Shown here in pieces: positions 9,311 to 18,321 of a stretch of DNA of 64,000 nt. Origin of the DNA: Nitrosomonadales bacterium. GTDB taxonomy: Bacteria > Pseudomonadota > Gammaproteobacteria > Burkholderiales > Gallionellaceae. How positions within the stretch are numbered: position 1 is the first letter of the stretch; each line of letters starts with the position of its first letter. A program made the position numbers and the translations under genes. The stretch is taken from NCBI GenBank assembly GCA_016235045.1, contig JACRME010000008.1:1-64000 (forward strand). Reading direction: 5' to 3'. The notes beneath the pieces are model-generated. The model saw nothing but the letters and a program-made list of their open reading frames with translations, was not told where the DNA came from and made no database searches.

Positions 9311-10507
9311 TCACCTCAATTTGATCTCGGTCCAGATGCGCGACAGCACGCGGCGCCGGTTGCGATCCAGGTCGCGCAGCATCTCCAGCCGCGCCTGCTG
9401 CGCACGGCCGGGAAACACGGCGGTGTTGTGCGCGATCTCCGGCTGGATGAATGGCCGCGCCGCGAGGTTCGGGTTGCCGGAGCCGATCAGGTTGGTGAGT
9501 TCGGATGAGTTCCTTCCATCCAGCATGAAATCGATGAAGCGGTGCGCGAGATCGGGACGCGGGCCGGATTTGTGCAACACCATCGAATCCAGCGCCAGTA
9601 CCGCCCCTTCCTTCGGCAGGCTGGCGAGAATGCGGAAACCGCGCGCCGCGTTCTGTGCATCCAGGTCGGCCTGGAAAATATCGTTGGAGTAGCCGTGCAC
9701 CAGCCAGATGTTGCCTACGGTGAGTTCCTTGATGTAGCTGGAGGCATTGAACGCTGCCCAGTACGGCTTGGCGCGGATGATGAGGTCGCGTGCCTGCTTC
9801 CAGTGCGTCTCGTCGTCATCGTTGGCGGAGTAACCGAGGTACTTAAGCGCCGCCGCCAGCAACTCGCGCTGGCTGTCGAGCACGGTGACATGGCCTTTGA
9901 GTTTTTCCAGATAGCGCGGCTCGAACACCACCGCCCAACTGTCGAGCGGCAGGTCCATGCCGCGCAGCTTCTCGCTGTTGTAGCCGATCAGCGTGATGGT
10001 GTAGGCGTACGGCACCGAATATTGGTTGCCGGGATCGAACCAGGTATCGAGGTAGGCCGGATCGATGTTCTTCAGGTTGGGCAGCAGGCGCTTGTCGAGC
10101 GGGCGCAGGGCCTGCTGGCGAATCAGCGCTTCCACCGCGTTGCCGGTCGGCACGATGAGGTCGTAGCCGGTGGCGCCCGCCGCCAGTTTGGCCAGCATCT
10201 CTTCGTTGTCGGAGTAGTAGTCCTGCACTACGCGGCAGGCGCATTGTTTTTCGAAGCGTTCGATGGTGGTGTCGGAGATGTAGTTGTTCCAGTTGTAGAG
10301 GTGCAGCACGTCTTCGGCGTGGGCGGAAGCAAACGATAAACCAAACCATATGCCACAGAGAACACAGAGTACACAGAGAATCGGTTTAGGCAGGGATGGG
10401 CAGCTTCTTGCCCAACTCGCAAAACCGCTGCTCTTTCCATGTCCGCTGCATTCGCTGTGATCTCTGTGTTCTCTGTGGCTATTTGTTTTTGATTTTTTGT
10501 TACTCAC
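9311..10507 (-). CDS. potD: Spermidine/putrescine-binding periplasmic protein with repeat-derived leader
   Basis: Solute-binding component of the polyamine ABC transporter. The mature part (~334 residues from DVLHLYNWNNY onward) matches the PotD/PotF family in length and motifs (NWNNYIS, SVPYAYTITLIGYN, NIWLVHGYSNDIF). The in-frame start is a GTG at 10507 that overlaps the TGA of potC, as expected for translational coupling; there is no in-frame ATG. The resulting leader of ~64 residues is unusually long because a 126-base palindromic repeat (10353-10478) lies inside it. The repeat arm is read as LCVLCVLCG and, with the native GLSFASAHA, forms the hydrophobic core and cleavage region of the signal peptide. 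Confidence 0.85.
   Translation of the reverse strand: MSNKKSKTNSHREHRDHSECSGHGKSSGFASWARSCPSLPKPILCVLCVLCGIWFGLSFASAHAEDVLHLYNWNNYISDTTIERFEKQCACRVVQDYYSDNEEMLAKLAAGATGYDLIVPTGNAVEALIRQQALRPLDKRLLPNLKNIDPAYLDTWFDPGNQYSVPYAYTITLIGYNSEKLRGMDLPLDSWAVVFEPRYLEKLKGHVTVLDSQRELLAAALKYLGYSANDDDETHWKQARDLIIRAKPYWAAFNASSYIKELTVGNIWLVHGYSNDIFQADLDAQNAARGFRILASLPKEGAVLALDSMVLHKSGPRPDLAHRFIDFMLDGRNSSELTNLIGSGNPNLAARPFIQPEIAHNTAVFPGRAQQARLEMLRDLDRNRRRVLSRIWTEIKLR
10353..10478. repeat. CACAGAG-arm inverted repeat inside the potD leader
   Basis: Left arm CCACAGAGAACACAGAGTAC continues to 10380; the right arm CTGTGATCTCTGTGTTCTCT continues to GTGG at 10478. The unit is 126 bases, 42 codons, with a ~75-base interior. 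Three more copies lie at 15259-15361, 16570-16674 and 18219-18321. Unlike those, this one is within a reading frame and keeps it open. Confidence 0.88.
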
Positions 10508-11280
10508 GTCTTCCCCTTCAACACATCCGGTGCAAACCGCGAAGCCAGCACAATCATGCACAGCGTGAGCAGCATCAGCAGCGTCGACACCGCATTCACT
10601 TCCGGCGTCACCGCGATCTTGATCATCGAGTAGATGCGCAGCGGCAGCGTCTGCACGCCGACCCCGGCAGTGAAGAAGGTGACCACGAAATCGTCGATGG
10701 AGAGCGTGAACGCCATCAGTCCGCCCGCGATCACAGCCGGCAGGATCAGCGGAAAGGTGACATAGCGGAAGGTCTCCCAAGGCGAAGCGCCGAGGTCGCG
10801 CGCCGCCTCGAACAGGCTTTCGTCGATGCTGGTCAGTTGCGCGCGCACGATCACCGCGACGAAACCGATGGAGAAGGTGATGTGGGCGAGCACGATGGAC
10901 AGCATGCCCAGTGTGAGGTTGAGCACCTGGATGAAGAACAGCAGCAGCGACACGCCCAGCAATATCTCCGGCATGGCCACCGGCGCCAGCACCATGAAGT
11001 TGAGCAGCTTGAGGTCGTAGCGATGGATGGCGAGCCCGGCCATGGTGCCCAACAGCGTGGCGGACAGGCTGGCCACGCTCGCGATGAGCAGCGAGTTGCC
11101 GGCGGCGATCAGCATATCCTCGTCGTGAAACAGGTCGTGATACCAGTGCCAGGTAAAGCCCACCCATTCCGCGTTCAGACGCGAGTCGTTGAACGAGTAG
11201 ATGACAACAATCGTGAGCGGCAGGTACAAAAAAGCATAGGCCGCCAGCGCAGCCGTCCATAGCCACGGGCCCCTACGCAT
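10504..11280 (-). CDS. potC: Spermidine/putrescine ABC transporter permease PotC
   Basis: Inner-membrane permease subunit of 258 residues with six predicted helices. The cytoplasmic EAA loop (ARDLGASPWETFRYVTFPLILPA) contacts the ATPase PotA and is intact. The start at 11280 overlaps the end of potB by 8 bases, and its stop overlaps the potD GTG. The gene order potA-potB-potC-potD is the classical one. The protein pairs with PotB to form the channel for polyamines delivered by PotD. Confidence 0.95.
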   Translation of the reverse strand: MRRGPWLWTAALAAYAFLYLPLTIVVIYSFNDSRLNAEWVGFTWHWYHDLFHDEDMLIAAGNSLLIASVASLSATLLGTMAGLAIHRYDLKLLNFMVLAPVAMPEILLGVSLLLFFIQVLNLTLGMLSIVLAHITFSIGFVAVIVRAQLTSIDESLFEAARDLGASPWETFRYVTFPLILPAVIAGGLMAFTLSIDDFVVTFFTAGVGVQTLPLRIYSMIKIAVTPEVNAVSTLLMLLTLCMIVLASRFAPDVLKGKT

Positions 11281-14197: not shown

Positions 14198-14304
14198 CCC
14201 CTCCCCCATGCAGGGGGAGGGTTAGGGTGGGGGTAGAGCTTGCAGAGTTGCTATTACTCCACGTTTCTACCCCCATCCTAGCCTTCCCCCTGCATGGGGG
14301 AAGG
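14198..14304. repeat. Palindromic element CCCTCCCCCATGCAGGGGGAGGG between regulator and prpB
   Basis: A hairpin at 14198-14221 followed by TTAGGGTGGGGGTAGA is repeated as its reverse complement at 14266-14304, so the whole unit is a large palindrome made of two smaller ones. It fills most of the gap before prpB and ends 50 bases upstream of the prpB start. It could attenuate or shield the prp message. Confidence 0.85.
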
Positions 14305-15258: not shown

Positions 15259-15361
15259 GCCACAGAGGACACAGAGATCACAGAGAGTGCAGCAACGCAT
15301 TCAACATGCGGCGCTCTGAACTCAAGCCGTGCTTCTCTGTGATCTCTGTGTTCTCTGTGGC
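15259..15361. repeat. CACAGAG-arm inverted repeat between prpB and prpC
   Basis: Arms GCCACAGAGGACACAGAGAT... (15259-15287) and ...ATCTCTGTGTTCTCTGTGGC (15333-15361) pair over about 28 bases. The core ATGCGGCGCTCTGA is shared, inverted, with the copy at 16570-16674. Transcribed in either direction it would fold into a long stem. Confidence 0.9.
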
Positions 15362-16569: not shown

Positions 16570-16674
16570 GCCACAGAGAACACAGAGATCACAAAGAAAG
16601 CCAGTTCCAACAATCAGAGCGCCGCATTGAAAGCGTTTGCCTTACCTCTCTGTGTACTCTGTGTTCTCTGTGGC
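16570..16674. repeat. CACAGAG-arm inverted repeat between prpC and prpD
   Basis: Left arm GCCACAGAGAACACAGAGAT (extending to ~16598) pairs with the right arm CTCTGTGTACTCTGTGTTCT (to GTGGC at 16674). Its core, read in reverse, matches the core of the 15259 copy, so the two are in opposite orientation. Confidence 0.9.
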
Positions 16675-18218: not shown

Positions 18219-18321
18219 GCCACAGAGAACACAGAGATCACAGAGATGACAGCGTATGTTTTCAGCGTGGTGCTTTGAAAACGAAAGAGGTTTTCTCTGT
18301 GATCTCTGTGTTCTCTGTGGC
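18219..18321. repeat. CACAGAG-arm inverted repeat between prpD and prpE
   Basis: Arms GCCACAGAGAACACAGAGAT... and ...GATCTCTGTGTTCTCTGTGG pair over ~28 bases. The core TTTTCAGCGTGGTGCTTTGA is a diverged version of the core in the 15259 copy, in the same orientation. Confidence 0.9.

Follow-up and report, generated by a model that had tools for sequence, protein, structure and literature searches.

A dispersed palindromic repeat in frame within the predicted signal peptide of a PotD-type binding protein in Gallionellaceae

In Yersinia, a YAPL/RU-2 repeat is present in the predicted exported protein YPO1552, and the signal sequences of related proteins are unrelated to the repeat (Delihas 2007, PMC2759123, PMC2229807). 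Rickettsia palindromic elements enter many unrelated genes in frame (Ogata 2000, as cited in PMC10969869), and PARCELs are palindromic DNA encoding a repeat peptide linked to membrane targeting, in the form of tandem 25-residue domain repeats (PMC2996958). We report a palindromic repeat with CACAGAG arms that lies in frame within the leader of a potD-type gene on a 64,000-nucleotide stretch of contig JACRME010000008.1 (the window) from a Nitrosomonadales bacterium of the Gallionellaceae. The repeat appears to supply the hydrophobic core of the predicted signal peptide.

Compared with those accounts, the potD palindrome is like the Rickettsia elements in that its reading frame places it inside a protein gene. 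Unlike their many genes, 1/59 located copies is read as a protein N-terminus here, and its position is that of a signal peptide. PARCELs form tandem domains, whereas the potD leader holds a single hairpin of the intergenic type. YAPL/RU-2 concerns one putative exported protein; potD encodes a conserved transporter subunit with compact leaders in close relatives, and unlike YAPL/RU-2 it shows repeated gains or losses, with several arm types at one junction. The high copy number, the mostly intergenic location and the strong hairpin are those of REP/MITE-type bacterial palindromes. A search of the open-access literature found nothing on the CACAGAG repeat or on comparable potD leaders. The apparent novelty is that the leader of a conserved transporter subunit has been rebuilt repeatedly and is found filled, empty or decayed; the idea of a repeat in a leader has precedents.

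The palindrome and the start of potD

The features of the locus are as follows.

9311..10507, minus strand: gene for a potD/potF-type ABC transporter substrate-binding protein (Pfam SBP_bac_8, 5.9e-27)
10505..10507, minus strand: potD start GTG, overlapping the potC stop as GTGA; the motif AAGGGG ends 5 nt upstream
10316..10507, minus strand: predicted 64-residue signal peptide, cleavage between AHA and ED placed by eye
10480..10504, minus strand: A-rich flank before the palindrome, encoding the lysine-rich n-region SNKKSKTN
10352..10479, minus strand: CACAGAG palindrome, in-frame codons of the PotD leader, arms GCCACAGAGAACACAGAG.../...CTCTGTGTTCTCTGTGGC, RNA fold dG -72.4 kcal/mol, z -7.7
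10450..10479, minus strand: 5' arm on the coding strand, encoding the charged HREHRDHS
10383..10426, minus strand: inner hairpin or loop unit (GGTTTTGCGAGTTGGGC...CCTAAACC), encoding GFASWARSCPSLPKP
10352..10381, minus strand: 3' arm on the coding strand, encoding ILCVLCVLCG, the whole of the most hydrophobic 10-residue segment
10338..10351, minus strand: T-rich flank after the palindrome (ATATGGTTTGGTTT, IWFGL); its first codon is ATA, where TAA is commonest in other copies
10504..11280, minus strand: potC, a permease gene upstream in the operon (Pfam BPD_transp_1, 2.6e-19)

From the GTG at 10505-10507, the potD frame stays open through the palindrome as far as the stop at 9311, which confirmed that the palindrome lies in frame inside the leader. 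The initial annotation had placed a 42-codon element (10353-10478, 126 nt) between the start and the mature protein; the element is there and is one base wider on each side. Its arms have a 9-nt period. The leader reads VSNKKSKTNSHREHRDHSECSGHGKSSGFASWARSCPSLPKPILCVLCVLCGIWFGLSFASAHA, followed by EDV after the predicted cleavage site. Features of a Sec signal peptide are present, namely an n-region beginning SNKKSK and the AHA/ED cleavage site (both by eye) and the h-region ILCVLCVLCGIWFGL. A lipoprotein reading of LCVLCVLCG was set aside, as no lipobox was seen by eye. The loop kind of 10383..10426 also occurs in the leaders of two relatives (G098 and G095), and similar loop peptides occur in two other copies of the repeat (L134, L136).

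An in-frame scan of the leader region found no ATG, GTG or TTG between the palindrome and the mature part. The first such codon after the palindrome is the GTG encoding V of EDV in the mature protein. Many relatives, including ones with compact leaders, have ATGA or GTGA at the potC-potD overlap, and such an overlap of stop and start is seen in most compact leaders. Within the 16 nt before the potD start, 32/35 family loci have a Shine-Dalgarno-like tetramer, and 22/35 have AAGGGG or AAAGG. The initial annotation took the GTG coupled to potC as the sole in-frame start, and this stood, since no downstream start was found and the start is common to relatives with compact leaders.

Pfam found the SBP domain, an ABC_tran ATPase and BPD_transp_1 in two genes of the operon. 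The name PotD is used loosely, because the NCBIfam PotF and PotD matches (243 and 165 bits) are under the equivalog cut-offs of 636 and 582. Mature potD is under purifying selection, with dN/dS of 0.06-0.18 in 11 pairs that include genes with the repeat and genes lacking it.

Contribution of the repeat to the hydrophobic core

For the comparison of leaders, potD was matched at E<=1e-90 in 41 of 158 genomes in or near Gallionellaceae; the matched named genomes include Gallionella, Ferrigenium and Nitrotoga. Two matches were without a start (G022, G086) and the 39 other leaders were read. An in-frame CACAGAG palindrome is present in 8/39 (G000, G005, G007, G112, G098, G095, G116, G099) and an in-frame CACGAAA palindrome in 3/39 (G030, G093, G180). 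One more (G035) has a leader of the CACAGAG kind in which the palindrome has decayed and the hydrophobic core is retained. In 2/39 (L066 and L075, from G081 and G075) an unrelated repeat (TTCGACAGGCTCA...) lies at the potC-potD junction, upstream of the native signal peptide. The remaining 25/39 are repeat-free and mostly compact (e.g. MMWRSLLFLLFIGSAYA in G028); G140 is among the compact ones, and G067 and G181 have longer upstream leaders. Two of the CACAGAG leaders are composite (L076 and L091, from G116 and G099), a second palindrome (CCAGCGACTTGGCTG...) preceding the CACAGAG repeat. The peptide QPSRMASSYI, similar to part of the composite leader, precedes two repeat copies (L115, L123) in the genome of the window.

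Hydrophobicity was scored as the best 10-residue Kyte-Doolittle segment of the leader, with the element and with the element excised. Repeat-free family leaders have a median of 2.62 and a range of 2.04-3.78 (n=24, G140 left out). The leader in the window scores 3.14 with the element and 1.46 without it, below all 24 repeat-free leaders. The nine CACAGAG leaders (8 from the family plus G335, from another family) score 2.39-3.43 in full and 0.69-2.28 without the repeat; 9/9 are in the repeat-free range with the element and 8/9 fall below 2.04 without it. The Hessa scale pointed in the same direction, as 8/9 without the element were worse than the worst repeat-free leader. Scores also fell on excision in G035 (2.23 to 1.48) and in two leaders of other families, G050 (2.52 to 1.74) and G191 (2.60 to 1.29).

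The contribution depends on the arm type. The 9-nt-period CACAGAG arms, which read LCV, supply the core in 9/9 leaders. Arms of 8-nt period, found in two order-level loci (L297, L300), do so partly or not at all; the arm of L297 reinforces a core that lies downstream (2.43 vs 1.57 for the downstream part alone). CACGAAA, CACGGAG and CGCGAAG arms, reading FRV or LRV, supply the core in 0/5.

A compact core such as the LLFLLFIGSA of close relatives is absent from the potD leader in the window, suggesting that the repeat would now be needed for export in this lineage. The initial annotation proposed that the element helps to make a hydrophobic segment that would otherwise be short, and the two scores agree with this, the whole best segment coming from the arm. 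It also joined the arm, read as LCVLCVLCG, to a native GLSFASAHA. The arm is read as described; calling the rest native was perhaps too generous, as IWFGL may be in part repeat flank because a T-rich flank follows GGC in other copies. Its origin is uncertain because only 2/104 other flanks resemble the TATGGTTTG present here. Relatives with the same leader and no palindrome had been named as evidence that would count against exaptation. G035, with its decayed palindrome and retained core, fits exaptation better than refutation.

Recurrence at the potC-potD junction and copies elsewhere

The survey was widened to the order, where 73/300 genomes matched and part of the matches were fetched. Of 71 loci tried (68 from the order search, two repeats of family genomes being omitted, and 3 from a search with the leader in the window), 68 were parsed; L247, L250 and L256 were not. 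The 68 parsed loci were pooled with 38 family leaders and 78/80 loci from named genomes, many of them the same genomes, giving 184 readings and 138 distinct leaders. A palindrome of period 8 or 9 lies at the potC-potD junction in 20/138 distinct leaders, of which 19/20 are in frame; L071 (decayed) and L078, both under the score cut-off, were added by hand and L303 was classed by eye. The initial annotation regarded a repeat exapted as an export signal as unusual. That reading of the locus is supported by the comparisons made here, but with junction palindromes in 20/138 leaders it is not a one-off, and it has published precedents.

Outside the family, the palindromes are of type CACAGAG (G335), CGCAAAG-like (G050), CGCAGAG-like (G191) and CACGGAG (G358). 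A GCACAGAG palindrome occurs in a Thiobacillus (L297) and in a Hydrogenophilaceae genome (L300), and CGCGAAG in Thiobacillus 65-29 (L303). The sole out-of-frame case of the 20 is an order-level relative (L219), in which the repeat lies upstream of a native signal peptide. The gap from the potC stop is 2 mod 3 in 18/18 measurable in-frame cases (L078 being unmeasurable) vs 60/96 other measured leaders. The inserts thus kept the reading frame, although the 18 cases are related and not independent. Several potD homologues of Nitrosospira and Nitrosovibrio (L306, L308, L309, L311 and similar) have, by eye, lipoprotein-like leaders ending GC in place of a cleaved signal peptide.

On a DNA tree of 41 mature potD genes, at least 8 changes separate CACAGAG leaders (the decayed one included) from others, a count that does not distinguish gain from loss. 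CACAGAG leaders are intermixed with compact ones and arm types differ by lineage. A single clade was rejected for the 8 family CACAGAG rows (p-AU 7e-5), for all nine (8e-45), for G116 plus G099 (3e-35) and for the three CACGAAA rows (0.004). On the protein tree, filled and compact leaders are sisters in G116/G117 (97/93) and G099/G130 (100/96); on the DNA tree the former pair is not resolved and the latter stays at 100/98. Among 6 pairs of repeat-bearing leaders, identity of the leader was slightly higher than that of the mature gene in 3 and lower in 3. Presence and absence among relatives suggest that the repeat has been mobile.

Elsewhere, the repeat is abundant. With up to one mismatch, CCACAGAGNNCACAGAG has 14 matches in the window against a shuffle mean of 0.02. 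Genome-wide, the arm pattern matches 72 times in forward and 71 times in reverse orientation, and a reversed-pattern control has no match. Terminal inverted repeats and high copy number give it a MITE-like character. Three further copies in the window lie between genes:

15259..15361, no strand: further palindrome copy, between genes
16570..16674, no strand: further palindrome copy, between genes
18219..18321, no strand: further palindrome copy, between genes

These fill three successive gaps of an apparent propionate (methylcitrate) cluster, with gene names assigned by eye. In all, 59 elements (54 two-armed) were located; the regions covered were those surrounding 100 of the 143 arms, taken in order, and the initial 20 kb of the window. 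The survey covered gene N-termini, and the genes that follow were judged by eye. In 22 located cases the repeat is followed by a frame of 90 codons or more whose GC by codon position looks coding; two of these frames are doubtful genes (L024 at 2601, and L124). Read-through as a gene N-terminus was seen in 1/59 located copies, potD; in the others of the 22 the start codon is downstream of the repeat, by eye. This agrees with the initial annotation, which described the repeat as non-coding between other genes. The 38-residue leader query matched in at least 55/158 family genomes. No other signal-peptide case was found by eye in the 12 loci scanned that the leader in the window matched or in 7 plus 20 loci among the matches listed, chosen mainly for long open frames. 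In the inspected loci, apparent real genes start past the repeat and several long frames look antisense.

The outward flanks past GGC are T-rich and often start TAA. Among 105 flanks in the genome of the window, T-rich sequence occurs on both sides of the repeat, so that it could act as a bidirectional terminator between genes. The codon after GGC in the potD frame is a stop in 49/104 flanks of the same genome. In ten potD leaders (nine plus the decayed one) it is ATA, TTA, TCA, TTG or TCC and a stop in 0/10, these leaders being related and not ten independent trials. [LIS]WF follows the arm in 9/10 CACAGAG-type leaders, and 2/104 other flanks resemble TTATGGTTTG; shared descent, exchange of leaders or selection may lie behind its recurrence. 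Open frames with a hydrophobic 3' end (at least 2.04) made up 86/324 (27%) of the frames from the 54 own copies, 17/1620 from composition-shuffled copies and 32/1620 from random stretches of the window.

A separate strong palindrome lies at 14207-14296 of the window (CCCCTCCCCCATGCAGGGGGAGG...), with Rfam microRNA matches under the curated threshold. Rfam on 10 kb likewise gave matches only under curated thresholds, mostly microRNA models on hairpins, which were taken as chance.

Origin of the leader

Taken together, the results suggest, with a probability of about 0.8, that a palindrome inserted at the overlapping junction is obliged to become part of the signal peptide and that one with a hydrophobic reading can become its core. 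A dispersed palindromic repeat would have come to occupy the potC-potD junction. Because the stop/start overlap (GTGA or ATGA) leaves no intergenic space, an insert after the start would become part of the potD leader. We infer that translation starts at the potC-coupled GTG and continues through the hairpin of the repeat, and that cleavage and export follow. The lysine-rich n-region would derive from the A-rich left flank, the hydrophobic core from the 3' arm together with the T-rich stretch that follows, and the cleavage region (ASAHA before ED) from host residues. More tentatively, at somewhat short of even odds, short-period palindromes composed of an A-tract, a charged 5' arm, a hydrophobic 3' arm and a T-tract may be signal peptide modules that come ready-made. 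In Betaproteobacteria, with arm types differing by lineage, they would repeatedly have taken the place of the native export signal, or rebuilt it, where potC and potD overlap, selection then keeping the hydrophobic reading while the palindrome decays.

Several observations weigh against forced incorporation as the source of the core. Some suit a palindrome merely tolerated as passive cargo that lengthens the leader, the downstream IWFGLSFASA already being enough as a core. Without the element the score of G007, 2.28, remains within the repeat-free range, and that of G112 is barely under it (2.02 vs 2.04). The best segment lies outside the arm in the three CACGAAA leaders and G358 (0-1 of 10 residues from the arm) and in the downstream part in L300 and L303, so the repeat does not form the core in every case, the best segment being elsewhere in at least 6 leaders. 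Nor are excised leaders true ancestors, because residues after the element may partly derive from it. Passive cargo is nevertheless unlikely for the window, where the excised leader scores below every repeat-free family leader, the compact core of relatives is absent and the best ten residues all come from the arm; G035, too, kept its core after losing the palindrome. A strong hairpin near the start might also depress translation. If the true start were elsewhere, such as a rare ATA after the element, the repeat would be a non-coding spacer or terminator. This would suit the non-coding appearance of other copies and L219, with its repeat upstream of a native signal peptide. It is very improbable, as the codon there is ATA, TTA, TCA, TTG or TCC in relatives with no conserved start, compact leaders have the same potC-coupled start, the frame is kept in 19/20 and only about 12 leader residues would remain.

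As for the frame, short-gap leaders are 2 mod 3 in 38/43, such gaps being favoured anyway because overlapping ATGA starts require them. The CACAGAG leaders may also share descent or have been exchanged, given that [LIS]WF is found in 9/10 and is rare in other flanks. Within the family there is nearly an even chance that a single ancestral leader bearing the element was passed between species through homologous recombination, or repeatedly lost, and that real insertions were few. The composite leader shared by G116 and G099, whose mature genes do not form a joint clade, and the three pairs in which the leader is slightly closer than the mature gene are in keeping with such a spread. The other three pairs, with leaders less alike, are not, and one ancestral leader does not account for the variety of arm types that this junction shows within the family and beyond it. 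Insertion, as opposed to recombinational exchange of leaders, is what the main reading supposes.

The potD leaders offer a natural comparative case in which a non-coding repeat has apparently turned into part of a protein, its filled, empty and decayed forms all being present among close relatives. They suggest a testable rule, that repeats inserted at stop/start overlaps must become protein and that signal peptides can absorb such inserts because hydrophobicity is needed more than sequence. For annotation they carry a warning, as LCVLCG leaders that look spurious can be real.
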